Shown: one piece after another, positions 17,512-25,095 of the stretch
Numbering within the stretch: the first letter of the stretch is position 1
Layout of the letters: each line of letters begins with the position of its first letter
Source: Pseudobdellovibrionaceae bacterium
GTDB taxonomy: Bacteria; Bdellovibrionota; Bdellovibrionia; Bdellovibrionales; Bdellovibrionaceae
Assembly (NCBI GenBank): GCA_030158485.1
Contig: JAOASS010000009.1
Coordinates: forward strand, 124,001 to 188,000
DNA: 64,000 nt
Direction of reading: 5' to 3'
Made by a program: the position numbers and the translations under genes
The notes under the pieces: model-generated
Seen by the model: only the letters and a program-made list of their open reading frames with translations
Database searches by the model: none
Told to the model about the DNA's origin: nothing

Positions 17512-18369
17512 ATGAATGATGACCTGATAAATAAAATCGTACAACTTGAAAATCAAGTACAGAGCTATGAAAGGTTGCTGAAGCAAGCAAATGATAAACT
17601 TCTGCAGCTTGCGACTGAAATTGCTTCTGATTTAGACTGGGCTTTGAAGCTTCAAAAAAAATTAGTGCCAACAGAAATTCCAGCTATAAAAGGTTTTGAG
17701 TTTAGCTCTAAATTCATTCCAGGCAGTCGATTTGGTGGAGATTATTTCGATATCTTCGAGCACGAAGATCGTTGGAAATTTGGAGTTTTTATTTCAAGTT
17801 GTTCTGGTTATACAGTTTCTTCAGCTCTAATGGGTCTTCTCATTAAGTTTTCAACTCAGGTTGAGGCGAAGCGGGGAATGCAGCCCGATGAATTCGTAAC
17901 ACTACTTGCGACTGAACTTGTGTCCAGTTTCAAGGAAAAAGATCGTGCCAGTCTTTTTTATGGGATGGTCGATAGAAAAAATTTAAATCTTCATTATTGT
18001 TCGGCTGGAATGATTTCTGTGTACCGTCAAGCGAAGGGGCGTGATGCAATTGACTTTATAGATCCGGTTGCAGCTGAGTTTTCACTAGACTTTAAAACAG
18101 TATTGACGACACGAACAGTGAGTCTAGAGCCAGGCGACCGAATTGTTATTTGCACGCCAGGACTTTTTTCGTCTCGTGATTCAAATGAAAAAAGTTGGGG
18201 TGCGGAGAATCTTATCGACGCGTGGCGCTCGGCTTCTAAAAAAGGCGTTCATGAGCTTAGAAACGAGATTTTTTATCGCCAACAATCATTTTCAAATTCT
18301 TCCGAACCCTTAAGAGACCAAAGTTTGATTGTGATAGAAGTCCAAGACAGAATTATTAAGCTGGCCTAA
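17512..18369 (+). CDS. SpoIIE/RsbU-type PP2C domain protein, metal ligands partly lost
   Basis: The 285-residue protein has an N-terminal coiled coil (residues about 1-40) leading into ALKLQKKLVPTEIP, the linker typical of RsbU-like proteins. The SpoIIE domain then has SRFGGDYFDIF. Where active enzymes have a DVSGHG-like strand, this protein has ISSCSGYT; where they have YTDGL, it has CTPGLF. The final Asp in RDQSLIVIEV remains. Losing two metal aspartates suggests reduced or no phosphatase activity, perhaps a scaffold or sensor. Active homologues dephosphorylate anti-anti-sigma factors, but no such partner gene is in the window. Confidence 0.7.
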   Translation: MNDDLINKIVQLENQVQSYERLLKQANDKLLQLATEIASDLDWALKLQKKLVPTEIPAIKGFEFSSKFIPGSRFGGDYFDIFEHEDRWKFGVFISSCSGYTVSSALMGLLIKFSTQVEAKRGMQPDEFVTLLATELVSSFKEKDRASLFYGMVDRKNLNLHYCSAGMISVYRQAKGRDAIDFIDPVAAEFSLDFKTVLTTRTVSLEPGDRIVICTPGLFSSRDSNEKSWGAENLIDAWRSASKKGVHELRNEIFYRQQSFSNSSEPLRDQSLIVIEVQDRIIKLA

Positions 18370-19741: not shown

Positions 19742-21445
19742 ATGGCTTTTGACTATCATAAGAACAAAGAAGGCGGAGCAGGCGACAGTTTTTGGACGTC
19801 GTATTCTGACCTTTTTTTAGGGATGAGTGTCGTCTTCTTGTTACTTTATGTAACTGCGAGCCTGCGGACGGGAACAAGCGGTTTACACGCTCAAGTAGAA
19901 AATAAAAAACTTACGATGCAAGTCGATGATTTAAAAAATCAATTGAAAATGTATGACTCCGTTAAGAAAGACTATCTTAATCAAGAGGCTTCGCCGGATG
20001 AAGCTCAGCAATACAACGAATTGATGGACAAGCTCTCTTTATTGCAAGAAGAAGCACGAGACGAAAGAGTCAAATTAGCAAGAGAATCACACGAGCAACA
20101 AACAAAAGAAAAAGCTCTGAACGAATACCAGCAAATGGTTCGGAATATGATTAATGCAAACACGATTGCCAAAACAAAAATCAAGCGACGTGAAGGCGTA
20201 ATTGAAAAACAAGACGATACAATCGAAGACCAAGGCGTTGAAATTTCGGGACTTGAAACAGATGTTGAAAATAAGCAGCAACAAATTGCTGAAAATGAAA
20301 GAAAAATTGCAGAAGCGAACGATAAGTTAGATCTGCGTTTGAAGCAATTGAAACAAGCTTACAAGCAAAAGCAAATGACGGAAAAGTCTTACAAGGCTCA
20401 AATCGCGAAAGCAAAAGCTGATGCGGATGCAAAGCTGAATCAGTTAAATTCAGCAGCCGAAGCTTATCAAAAACAACTGGCAGAATCAGAAGGTCAGCTG
20501 GGTCAGGCGAAGATAGAATTACAAAAGACACAAACAGAACTTGATAAAACATCTGGTCAGTTAGCTCAAGCGGGCGAAGAACTGGGTAAGACTCGAAATA
20601 AGTTAGGTCAAGTGGCTAGCGAATTAGGATCTGCAAAAGGTCAGTTGGTTCAAACACAAAGCGAGCTTGGTAAAACAAAGGGGCAGTTGGGTCAGCTCAG
20701 TGGCGAGCTCGGGAAAACCAAAGGGGAATTGGGTCAGTTAAGTGGAGAACTTGGTAAGACCAAAGGCCAACTTGGACAGCTTGCTGGTGAGTTAGGTAAA
20801 GCTAAAGGTCAATTAGGTCAAGCGCAAGGACAAATTGGACAACTTTCGGGGGAACTGGCTGTTGCAAAAGCTAATGCGGATGCTAGGAAAAAAATTGCAG
20901 CGCGAATGCGCGAAGGATTTTCTAAAGCCGGTGTTAAAGCTGATATCGATGATCGGACGGGTGAAGTGGTTATTAATTTCGGAGATGTTTATTTTGCGAA
21001 TGATTCGTCTCAGTTAAAAGATAAAATGAAAGATGTTTTGCAAAAAGCGATGCCAGAGTATTCAAAAGCATTATTTGGTGATGAAAAGTTAAGAGATAAG
21101 ATTACTTCGGTAGAAATTATTGGATTTTCGTCTCCGACTTATCAGGGAAAGTATGTTGATCCCAAATCATTAGATCCAAACGTGCGTAAAGCAGTCGATT
21201 ACAATTTGGATTTAAGTTACAAGCGCGCACGAGCGATCTTTCAGCATATTTTTGATGATAAAAAAATGAATTTTTCCTATCAAAAGGATCTGTTGCCGTT
21301 GATTAAAGTGACTGGACGAAGTTTTTTAGCTGAAAAAATAGATGATAAAAATAGAAATCCAACGAGCAAAAACTTTTGTGACACGCATGATTGTCGAAAA
21401 GCCCAGCGAGTTATAATTAAATTTAGTTTTGATGATAAGAAATAG
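19742..21445 (+). CDS. MotB/ZorB-like stator protein with long stalk and OmpA domain
   Basis: The 567-residue protein has an N-terminal helix SYSDLFLGMSVVFLLLYV with Asp23 at its base. This is where MotB and ZorB have their ion-binding Asp. Residues about 45-385 are one continuous coiled coil, including 14-residue repeats based on GQLGQLSGELGKTK (nucleotides 20681-20806). The C terminus (about 400-565) is an OmpA-like peptidoglycan-binding domain (INFGDVYFANDSSQLK, VEIIGFSSPTY, SYKRARAIFQHIF). It should be the peptidoglycan-anchored stator of an ion-driven complex with the next gene product. The stalk is far longer than in flagellar MotB. A good ribosome site precedes the ATG. Confidence 0.8.
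   Translation: MAFDYHKNKEGGAGDSFWTSYSDLFLGMSVVFLLLYVTASLRTGTSGLHAQVENKKLTMQVDDLKNQLKMYDSVKKDYLNQEASPDEAQQYNELMDKLSLLQEEARDERVKLARESHEQQTKEKALNEYQQMVRNMINANTIAKTKIKRREGVIEKQDDTIEDQGVEISGLETDVENKQQQIAENERKIAEANDKLDLRLKQLKQAYKQKQMTEKSYKAQIAKAKADADAKLNQLNSAAEAYQKQLAESEGQLGQAKIELQKTQTELDKTSGQLAQAGEELGKTRNKLGQVASELGSAKGQLVQTQSELGKTKGQLGQLSGELGKTKGELGQLSGELGKTKGQLGQLAGELGKAKGQLGQAQGQIGQLSGELAVAKANADARKKIAARMREGFSKAGVKADIDDRTGEVVINFGDVYFANDSSQLKDKMKDVLQKAMPEYSKALFGDEKLRDKITSVEIIGFSSPTYQGKYVDPKSLDPNVRKAVDYNLDLSYKRARAIFQHIFDDKKMNFSYQKDLLPLIKVTGRSFLAEKIDDKNRNPTSKNFCDTHDCRKAQRVIIKFSFDDKK
20681..20806 (+). repeat. Three 42-bp in-frame tandem repeats within the stator gene
   Basis: Three 14-residue units (GQLGQLSGELGKTK, GELGQLSGELGKTK, GQLGQLAGELGKAK) follow one another, and looser copies flank them on both sides (about 20480-20880). 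Each is two heptads, so copy-number change would lengthen or shorten the coiled coil without breaking it. Confidence 0.85.
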
Positions 21446-21460
21446 AATTAAGGAGAATAT

Positions 21461-22402
21461 ATGGAATCATTTTCTCAATTTGGACAGTATTTTGTAGCAC
21501 TGCTACCGTGGGTGATGGGCGTCATCTTTGTTGTCGGATGTGCGCTAAGGTATTTTATTAACTATACAGTAAAGCGCCATGAGTGGTTTGCGCGTGAATT
21601 TGAAAAGCGAGTTCATTTTTTTATGGATTCAGAAGTTCCAGGAAAAGAAAAAAATGTGTCGTTCTATTCTTTAACTAAAAGAATTCTAGAAAAAACCTAC
21701 TACGAAGTTTTTGAAGTACGAGATAAATATCGTCGACGTCGTTTTGACCGTGTCATGCATTGGAACGATAGAGTCTTTTTAGTTAAGCAAGGTTGTGCTT
21801 GGTTAGTGAGAGATATCATGAAGCAGCTTCGATTTTTGAAGTGGACAAATGATACGCCAAAGCTTTTACAAATTACCAAAGCCACGTTTCATCATAATCC
21901 ATGTTTTAATCGTATTTTCGGGGTCCTGCCAATTTCTGTTGTAAATGACTTGATGTCAATTTTGCCCGGACTTTTCGTCGTGGCTGGTATTTTGGGTACA
22001 TTTATTGGTATAGCGAAAGGTCTTCCAGAATTAGGCGGAATGAATCTGACAGACATGGAAAATTCAAAGCTGATTATGGATAAGTTCTTGAACGAAATCG
22101 CTTTTGCTATGCATTCATCTATTTTTGGTATTACATTTTCACTGGTCATGCACTTATGGAATACATACTATTCTCCAGAGCGAACGTATGTTTCAATGAT
22201 TGATCGTTTTGAAAGTTCATTGGATCTTTTGTGGTATCGATCTGATAATAACAATGTGACTGCAGAAGAAATTAAGTTTGATGAGCACCGCGATCCAACG
22301 GAAGCTTTAGCTCATGAAGCAGTTCGAATTGAAACTGAAAAGAATCCTCGTGGTCGAGAATTTGATGATGTAAAAAAAGATAAAACTGAAAAGGCATCTT
22401 AA
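21461..22402 (+). CDS. MotA/TolQ/ZorA-like ion channel protein
   Basis: The 313-residue protein has three membrane segments: about 9-30, then after a 120-residue basic cytoplasmic loop about 158-185 (LPGLFVVAGILGTFIGIAKG), and about 210-235 (EIAFAMHSSIFGITFSLVMH). The LPG...GTFIGI block with its proline and the polar small-residue third helix are the channel signature of the MotA-TolQ-ExbB superfamily. The three-helix plan is closest to TolQ and ZorA. A charged C-terminal tail of about 70 residues is cytoplasmic. It lies 15 bases after the MotB-like gene, so the two should form one ion-driven stator. It is not flagellar motA itself. Confidence 0.78.
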   Translation: MESFSQFGQYFVALLPWVMGVIFVVGCALRYFINYTVKRHEWFAREFEKRVHFFMDSEVPGKEKNVSFYSLTKRILEKTYYEVFEVRDKYRRRRFDRVMHWNDRVFLVKQGCAWLVRDIMKQLRFLKWTNDTPKLLQITKATFHHNPCFNRIFGVLPISVVNDLMSILPGLFVVAGILGTFIGIAKGLPELGGMNLTDMENSKLIMDKFLNEIAFAMHSSIFGITFSLVMHLWNTYYSPERTYVSMIDRFESSLDLLWYRSDNNNVTAEEIKFDEHRDPTEALAHEAVRIETEKNPRGREFDDVKKDKTEKAS

Positions 22403-22422
22403 ACGTTTAAGTTGGTGAGTCA

Positions 22423-25095
22423 TTGGGAGTATTAAAGTTATTTGAAGGCACAAATGAACTTGTATGTGTCGTTGTTACGATTAGAACTCCTGACGGGAGT
22501 TTGCAGAAAGTAGTTGACGGCACATCATTCAGTATTGGGCGAGCGCCTGACTGTGTGCTTTCTATTCCTCATGCAGGCATTAGTCGTCTACATGTATTAG
22601 TGACTATCAAGCGTGGTGAAGTCTATTTGATGGATCAAGAGTCTTCAAATGGAACTTTTATTAATGGGACTAAAGTTGAACCCAAGCGTTTAATTCATAT
22701 CAAGCCATCAGATGAAATTAAATTAGGTCTTTCTGAAGTTTTCATGCAGTTCGCGGCACTTGAAAAACATTTTAAAGTAGATTATATTGCTGAAAGTCTT
22801 TTGCCGAGTCATGAAAAAGATAATCTTCAAGCTCTCATCAGAGCAAGTAATCACAAAGCTCAAGAAATTATATCAGGCGCGCAGATACAGGCAGATCATA
22901 TTTCACAAGTGTCTGCGGAAAAAGCCCGAAATTTAGAAAACCAGACACTGCTTAAACAAGAAGAAATTATTTCCAGCGCACAAGTCGAAGGCCAACATTT
23001 AGTTTCTGAATCAAAACGTAAAGCTGCGCAAATATTACTAGAGAACGAAGATCGTACAAAAGAATCTTGCCAAAATATTTATGATCAAGCCGAACGAATT
23101 CGTAAAGAAGCCGAAACATATTTTCAGAATAGAGTGAAAGAAGCAGAAACTGCCGGGGCCGAAATTATTGATCATCATGCTAAGCTTGGGCAAGAGCTAG
23201 TTGAAGATTTAAAAGAAAAAACGACAAAAAAAGTAGAAGCTGAGATTCGGTTACAATTAGCTACGATTATCAGTGAAATCGAAGAAAAGACAAATTATTT
23301 CAAAGAACTCCAAGAAACTTGTTCTGATTTTGAATTAAACAGAAAAAATGAAATCGAAGCAGAACTCAATAAATTAAAAGATGACTTAAAAGCTCAATTT
23401 GACCTTGAAAAAGTTGAAAAGTTTGACTCGCTACAACTGAAAATTAAAAATCTTGAAAATGAATATGAGCAAAAAAATATTCAGTTTGAAAAAGATTATT
23501 TAACTAAAGCAGCTCATCTGGACAGGGATTTGAATGAAAAGAAATCAATTTTCGAAAAAGATTATTTAAATCGTACTTTAGAAATGGAAAATAGCTTTGC
23601 CGAAAAGTCAACTTTACTTGAAGACAAGTATTTACAAAAAACTTTTGATCTTGAAAATAAATATGAAAATAGAAAAGCCGAAATAGATGAAGAGCTTAAG
23701 CTAAAAATCGAGGAAGCTTCAGTTTCTCTTGTTAAGCAAAAACAAAGATTAGATTCTGAGATTCAAATTCAAAGACAAGAATTGTCTCAAGTCGCATCTG
23801 AACTTAATTTGGCTAATGAAAAATGTATAGAAGCAAAAAATCAATTTGATAATATTAAAGAACTTTTGACCGGTTTGCAAAAAAATGAAGCTGACCTCAT
23901 TAAATCTCTTGGTGAAAAAAGAGATCTTATTAAAAGAGCTGATTTTGATTTGTTGGAAATTAAAAAAGAAATTGATACTCAGAATGAAAAATTTATTTCA
24001 CAAAAAAACGGATTAGAATCCCAAATTGATGAATGCCAGCATCGTTTATCAAAACTTAAGGCAGCATTTGAAGCTGAATCGGAAAGACTTAAAAAAGAAT
24101 CTGAAATTGAACTTTTAGCTTACAAAGAAGAATTCAAGAGAGAAAAAAATTTACTCGATCAACAGTTGAAAAATGAAAAATCTGACATTCATAAAAAAAC
24201 AGCAGATTATATGGATTCTGAAAGACTGCGTCTGGAAGATTATCGAACACAATTATTGCAAGAAAAAAAGAACTTAGATCTGGCCTTTGATAAAACAAAA
24301 AAAGACTTCGAATTAAAAACTAAAGAAGTGATAGAGCTTGAAAAACAGAAAATTGAAGAAGCACGGCAAAGCTTTGTTTTGAATTTAAATCGTGAACGTC
24401 AGCTTATTACTGATGAGGTGACAATTGCAATTATGAAAATTAAAAATCGTGATTCATTAACTGCAAGTCATATTTCAGACGAAGTGGCTAGGGTTTTTAA
24501 CTCACATGTGACGTCTCATTCTGTTGATAGTACAATTAAGAATTCGACCAATAATCAGAATCGGCTCAAAGTTCAATTCATGGGCTACGGATTGGGCTTA
24601 GCGCTTGTCGGATTATTTGCATTTAAGGTTTTAATTCAACCTCAAATCAATCGACACATTGCGGGAACTGAAGAGCATGCAATGGCAGCGATTCCCGTCG
24701 AACGTCCCAAATATGTAGCTCCGCAGTCTTTGGATTATAAAGATACTTATACAGATGCAGTGCTCTATACTCAAAAGTTTGCTGAGATTTATTTAGATGA
24801 ACAGCTTCACGATAAGTGGTTTAAGCATATTTCTGGGTATATGTATGAAAATTGGCGTGTTGACGAAACCAAATCAATTGAGGCAATTTCTATCAGTAAA
24901 ACATTAGTTCAGAATTTAAAAGACACTTCACTCAATTTAGATTCCGAATTTTATCAAAAAGGTATCGAGAAAATGCGTGAACTTGAAATGAGTCATGAAA
25001 AACGCATCATGGATATTTTAGGCACAAAAGTAAAATATGAAGCTTTCAAGCGTAAAGAGCGTGAATTTTTCGAGCCCTACATTCAGAATCAATAG
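22423..25095 (+). CDS. FHA-domain coiled-coil membrane protein
   Basis: The 890-residue protein starts at TTG 22423 after GGTGAG. Residues about 25-105 are a forkhead-associated domain: FSIGRAPDCVLSIPHAGISR, then LH, and SSNGTFINGTKV. It therefore probably binds phosphothreonine. Residues about 120-710 are almost entirely coiled coil rich in Glu and Lys. One membrane helix lies at about 718-740, leaving a 145-residue C-terminal domain, predicted periplasmic, with no family I know. It follows the MotA-like gene by 20 bases. A long cytoplasmic rod tethered next to an ion-driven stator suggests force transmission or signalling under Ser/Thr kinase control. That role is inference. Confidence 0.7.
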   Translation: MGVLKLFEGTNELVCVVVTIRTPDGSLQKVVDGTSFSIGRAPDCVLSIPHAGISRLHVLVTIKRGEVYLMDQESSNGTFINGTKVEPKRLIHIKPSDEIKLGLSEVFMQFAALEKHFKVDYIAESLLPSHEKDNLQALIRASNHKAQEIISGAQIQADHISQVSAEKARNLENQTLLKQEEIISSAQVEGQHLVSESKRKAAQILLENEDRTKESCQNIYDQAERIRKEAETYFQNRVKEAETAGAEIIDHHAKLGQELVEDLKEKTTKKVEAEIRLQLATIISEIEEKTNYFKELQETCSDFELNRKNEIEAELNKLKDDLKAQFDLEKVEKFDSLQLKIKNLENEYEQKNIQFEKDYLTKAAHLDRDLNEKKSIFEKDYLNRTLEMENSFAEKSTLLEDKYLQKTFDLENKYENRKAEIDEELKLKIEEASVSLVKQKQRLDSEIQIQRQELSQVASELNLANEKCIEAKNQFDNIKELLTGLQKNEADLIKSLGEKRDLIKRADFDLLEIKKEIDTQNEKFISQKNGLESQIDECQHRLSKLKAAFEAESERLKKESEIELLAYKEEFKREKNLLDQQLKNEKSDIHKKTADYMDSERLRLEDYRTQLLQEKKNLDLAFDKTKKDFELKTKEVIELEKQKIEEARQSFVLNLNRERQLITDEVTIAIMKIKNRDSLTASHISDEVARVFNSHVTSHSVDSTIKNSTNNQNRLKVQFMGYGLGLALVGLFAFKVLIQPQINRHIAGTEEHAMAAIPVERPKYVAPQSLDYKDTYTDAVLYTQKFAEIYLDEQLHDKWFKHISGYMYENWRVDETKSIEAISISKTLVQNLKDTSLNLDSEFYQKGIEKMRELEMSHEKRIMDILGTKVKYEAFKRKEREFFEPYIQNQ

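Follow-up and report, generated by a model that had tools for sequence, protein, structure and literature searches.

To our knowledge, ZorAB motors have been described only as anti-phage devices. In a 64,000-nucleotide stretch of DNA from a Pseudobdellovibrionaceae bacterium (hereafter the window), a ZorAB-like stator pair is instead encoded together with an FHA protein and no effector genes, raising the question of what such a motor does and how its action is passed on. We find that this gene trio is a real, conserved, and uncharacterised variant of the ion-driven envelope motors. It is probably a ZorAB-type, ion-driven motor of the cell envelope, anchored to peptidoglycan, whose lever is a separate coiled-coil protein with an FHA tip, acting in trans.

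Architecture of the three encoded proteins

The trio consists of three co-directional open reading frames on the + strand, encoding in order a B subunit (19742–21445), a channel protein (21461–22402), and an FHA protein (22423–25095), separated by 15 and 20 bases. Scans for promoters and terminators at the trio performed no better than on shuffled sequence. Two genes upstream, the window encodes a SpoIIE-type phosphatase (17512–18369), a neighbour that is seen in the same genus only.

The first gene encodes a ZorB/MotB-like stator protein of 567 residues (PADLOC ZorB, 6.8e-32). Hydropathy places its membrane helix at 19790–19864; within this helix, FWTSYSDLFLGM contains Asp23 (codon 19808–19810), a residue shared without exception by 45 orthologues. 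There follow a predicted coiled coil (approximately residues 44–390; 19871–20911) and an OmpA-like peptidoglycan-binding domain (residues 397–567; 20930–21442) recognised by profiles and by orthologue alignment, in which Cys546 and Cys551 are invariant, as are the OmpA-core residues. The coil is predicted to be periplasmic because it is preceded by a stator membrane helix and followed by an OmpA domain.

The length of this coil is strongly constrained in its first part. The first arm (residues 44–206) has a heptad periodicity of 3.50 residues and runs to a conserved helix break or turn, AYKQKQMTEKSYKAQIAKA (residues 206–224; 20357–20413), which was located by AlphaFold and distance analysis. 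In local profiles, 99 or 100 residues separated the membrane helix from a conserved coil site in 56 of 57 cases, and the distance from this site to the break took a single value in 41 of 54; 12 of the 13 deviating lengths differed by an exact multiple of seven. In these sequences, the length of the first arm is thus fixed, with changes confined almost entirely to seven-residue steps, which is a new point, and the coil is variable among orthologues beyond the break. AlphaFold modelled a confident non-helical break at residues 209–213 (pLDDT ~90) in a model of the B subunit that was weak in the coil (pTM 0.46), and a fold search with the full protein returned generic coiled coils only. At about 340 residues, a straight coil would measure about 50 nm, exceeding the width of the periplasm, and the coil is therefore likely to fold back, with an arm of about 24 nm. 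In the second arm, positions 20504–20860 encode a run of Gly-containing seven-residue repeats (GELGKTK/GQLGQLS).

The second gene encodes a ZorA-like channel protein of 313 residues with three membrane helices, as judged by profiles and hydropathy. Its conserved core, delimited by orthologue alignment and hydropathy, spans the second and third membrane helices (21959–22153) and includes GTFIGI (residues 179–184; 21995–22012), the GT of which is invariant among orthologues. Most orthologues are about 300–375 residues long, and the window protein continues for about 80 residues beyond its last membrane helix.

The third gene, with a TTG start, encodes an 890-residue protein made up of an FHA domain, a long coiled coil, a membrane helix, and a periplasmic helical domain. 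The FHA domain (residues 32–106; 22516–22740; Pfam match 3.3e-16) has the GR/SxxH/NG core, here GR, SRxH, and NG, and the corresponding phosphothreonine-binding residues G39, R40, S54, R55, H57, N76, and G77 are conserved among orthologues. Among solved structures, those nearest to this FHA domain include that of TB39.8 from Mycobacterium and that of a GGDEF protein, the latter probably being DgcB of Bdellovibrio, as identified from the subject of PMC6733907. A cytoplasmic coiled coil of about 590 residues (approximately residues 120–705; 22780–24537), with mostly 3.67-residue (hendecad) periodicity in orthologues and a length among them of 418–1063 residues, leads to a single membrane helix (residues 720–738; 24580–24636) supported by hydropathy and structure prediction. 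The protein ends in a periplasmic helical bundle (residues 755–890; 24685–25092) that AlphaFold modelled confidently (mean pLDDT 89.6); it had no match in the PDB by sequence or fold, and the fold search gave nothing at E below 0.3.

The main features had been described in the original prediction, namely the coordinates and spacings, the Asp in the B-subunit helix with its ~340-residue coil and OmpA-like end, the three channel helices with GTFIGI, and the 890-residue FHA protein with its ~590-residue coil and one membrane helix. We reproduced each of them, and the description was accurate as a whole.

Family placement and conservation of the trio

The marks of the 5:2 ion-driven motor superfamily (MotAB/ExbBD/TolQR/ZorAB) are present in the trio, namely the channel core motif and the Asp of the B helix. 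For the stator pair, Pfam MotB_plug and MotA_ExbB both scored below cut-off (MotA_ExbB at 13.0 bits vs 22.9 required), and NCBIfam ZorA matched the channel protein at 6.9e-11. In the PDB, a profile of 46 channel orthologues found only ZorA-type chains (8vvn, 8qyh, 8qyd, and 8vvi; best 3.7e-8), and a profile of 45 B-subunit C-termini found the B protein of entry 8vvi as its sole match (1.2e-5). On these profiles the stator pair is ZorAB-like, being nearest to ZorA/ZorB and not to MotAB or ExbB/TolQ. Flagellar MotA-MotB shares with the trio the stator architecture, the MotB-like helix with its Asp, and the OmpA-like anchor; unlike it, the trio has a channel predicted to contain three helices, not four, and has no conserved flagellar neighbours. 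A phylogeny study treated ZorAB as a remote homologue, leaving it out of MotAB trees, and described a Zorya-type beta-sheet for the cytoplasmic part of the channel protein (PMC12505986).

The likeness to ZorA-ZorB of Zorya types I and II extends to the three-helix channel, the Asp in the B helix, and the OmpA-like peptidoglycan domain, and the trio's channel core and B-subunit C-terminus match these proteins above all other solved structures. By the features tested, however, the trio is not a Zorya system, because its channel protein lacks a long C-terminal tail and no effector genes lie alongside. In Zorya ZorA, this cytoplasmic tail is long and essential (PMC11890865). Further differences from Zorya are the coil of about 340 residues in the B subunit, the FHA-rod partner, and the absence of a neighbour of the ZorC, ZorD, or ZorE type. 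The curated Zorya cut-offs were missed by both proteins (NCBIfam ZorA, 41.8 bits vs 100; ZorB2, 38.2 vs 400), and an EH_Signature search of the source genome, run without a positive control, gave no match.

The channel protein was detected in 85 of the 144 genomes of the class. The order B subunit, channel protein, FHA protein was kept in 40 loci spanning many genera, the few exceptions being contig ends or FHA-less loci; in one apparent exception, the FHA gene sits on another contig. No conserved neighbour besides the trio was found in these 40 class loci. Additional families of the phylum show the same order. Across 369 phylum genomes, strong matches to the channel protein and to the FHA-protein tail occurred together in 128, the channel alone in 16, the tail alone in five, and neither in 220, a co-occurrence with a Fisher p of ~1e-73 that is uncorrected for relatedness. 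The trio is thus conserved as a unit across Bdellovibrionota.

These results uphold much of the original interpretation, which had proposed a ZorAB-like pair within a three-gene unit, an absence of Zorya effector genes, an FHA component, and a rod located in the partner and not in the channel protein. Neither of the outcomes named in advance as refuting it was seen, since stator profiles did match and the three genes do occur together. Control by threonine phosphorylation and a role in gliding, predation force, or envelope sensing, which that interpretation also suggested, stay putative.

In a weaker second group of channel matches (E ~1e-36 to 1e-43), the five loci retrieved encode ZorAB-like pairs. 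No FHA-coil or ankyrin partner was detected in these five loci, and the B subunit is elongated in four of them, the fifth being cut by a contig end. Elsewhere, one locus (L148, 7450–9902) encodes a short B subunit (283 residues) and a longer channel protein (~520 residues), nearer to classical Zorya geometry; no effector was recognised in the few neighbours scanned.

Partner exchange and the channel C-terminus

Beyond its membrane helices, the channel protein carries the motif FDEHRDPTEALAH (residues 273–285; 22277–22315), which we propose as the docking site for the FHA protein on the basis of its conservation and its distribution. All readable channel C-termini from genomes with an FHA-coil partner (~60 genomes) contained FDEHRDPxEALAE or a close form, which is degenerate in L055, and no locus from a genome without this partner had it. 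In all ten FHA-less loci retrieved from two families, a divergent gene lies just upstream of the B subunit; its product has an FHA-like domain at the N-terminus (P 4e-5 and a probability of 70% for the profile match, against P 0.17 for the control), followed by a proline-rich stretch, one or more membrane segments, and ankyrin repeats. The motif tracks the FHA-coil partner, and in these ten loci the ankyrin protein takes the place of this partner, a new point whose underlying correlation is partly confounded by descent, since the FHA-less loci form a few clades. On the simplest reading, FDEHRDPxEALAE would be where the FHA-coil protein docks, and the third component may be replaceable. The partner swap and the loss of the motif amount to a natural experiment on the route by which motors of this kind transmit motion or signal to a partner.

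A further new point, independent of the FDEHRDPxEALAE motif, is that the channel protein is conserved at its extreme C-terminus. The window protein ends in the tripeptide KAS (22391–22399), and an [AVGTI][SAG] ending was counted in 68 of 72 channel proteins compared to 14 of 286 background proteins. The last three residues (K/R, A/V, S/A) are kept behind a variable linker, the distant second group included.

Candidate mechanism and biological role

In the mechanism that we favour, five channel proteins probably surround two B subunits, with Asp23 of the B subunits carrying the ion and the OmpA domain fixing them to peptidoglycan through the long periplasmic coil, which would fold back at the conserved turn. 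Ion flow at the interface between channel and Asp23 would turn or shift the channel ring around the anchored B subunits. In Zorya, the lever is part of ZorA, namely its C-terminal tail; in the trio, the channel protein ends early, and the rod of the FHA protein would act in trans. Such a partner has a precedent in AglR, a stator protein that binds the FHA-TM protein GltG (PMC3169522). Held in the membrane by its own helix, the FHA protein may dock its coil on the FDEHRDPxEALAE motif, and its distal FHA domain may connect the motor with threonine-phosphorylated clients. The same membrane helix and periplasmic domain would be awkward for a rod that turns with the channel ring. A Ser/Thr kinase near the trio, an idea raised by the original prediction, was not found in the source genome or in other genomes with the source genome's own kinase as query; the one clear Hanks-type kinase of the source genome lies away from the trio. 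Plausibly, the motor would monitor the condition of the cell wall or outer membrane, or act on it, and relay this to the cytoplasm, and we rank this role ahead of gliding or predation and of phage defence.

In B. bacteriovorus HD100, we take the trio to be Bd1167, Bd1168, and Bd1169 from a gene count that runs back from a YkuD-type protein assumed to be Bd1176, which makes Bd1167 the B-subunit orthologue. The trio is present in two genomes that we take to be the periplasmic predators HD100 and Tiberius, and absent from two that we take to be the epibiotic predators B. exovorus and B. qaytius, a comparison of four genomes only and hence a lead. This distribution is consistent with a motor that drives gliding or prey entry in the manner of AglRQS and GltG, where the FHA-TM protein would couple the motor to the envelope. 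The AglRQS-GltG gliding core of Myxococcus and Bdellovibrio likewise joins an ion-driven stator to an FHA-TM partner, the interaction of AglR with GltG is established, and a GltG profile matches the FHA protein, weakly and through the FHA domain only. We nevertheless consider a gliding motor unlikely. Its stator is of the TolQR type, unlike the ZorAB-like pair of the trio; GltG, whose periplasmic end is TonB-like, works in a core complex that includes GltC, GltD, and GltE; and neither these genes nor those for AglS or AglQ are conserved in the trio cluster among the 40 loci. Furthermore, Bd1167–1169 are not named in the main text of one mutant screen, and HD100 has separate agl/glt clusters (PMC3169522).

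Less likely still is a new type of Zorya-like anti-phage system, with the FHA protein serving as the effector or recruiting it. The nearest known relatives of the stator pair are ZorA and ZorB, and the trio is patchily distributed, occurring in some members of a genus and not in others. However, no nuclease, helicase, or other effector gene is a conserved neighbour in the 40 loci, the trio is nearly always single copy per genome, and the scores fall short of the curated Zorya cut-offs. Identity to the window sequence declines broadly with taxonomic distance, as expected of inheritance with losses and not of mobile defence genes. A conserved chromosomal ZorAB relative without effectors, found also in the model predator B. 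bacteriovorus, instead suggests a second, envelope-related use of the ZorAB-type motor.

A cytoskeletal, crescentin-like coiled-coil protein without motor function, as Bd1167 has been described (PMC2797640), is very improbable, given that the weak crescentin match (0.0032) is confined to the coil and that the membrane helix with its invariant Asp and the OmpA domain would put this coil in the periplasm. From its sequence, Bd1167 is better read as a membrane-anchored stator subunit, making the question directly testable in HD100.

The trio may belong to a distinct, phylum-wide class of non-defence ZorAB-type envelope motors, a possibility that we hold tentatively. In such a class, the third part could be swapped between an FHA-coil-TM-helical rod and an FHA-like-TM-ankyrin protein, the length-locked periplasmic hairpin could reach the outer membrane, and the motor would read or work the whole envelope and report to phosphorylated cytoplasmic partners. 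The FHA partner may also act elsewhere, as suggested by the five genomes that have an FHA-tail gene and no strong channel match. FHA-tail genes were seen apart from the stator pair in three genomes (L153, 3915–7403; L154, 4403–6037; L155, 4900–6528), where they adjoin genes that we named by eye from the sequence as heptosyltransferase-like and PAP2-like; these neighbours hint at a link of the FHA-tail protein to lipopolysaccharide or envelope lipid.
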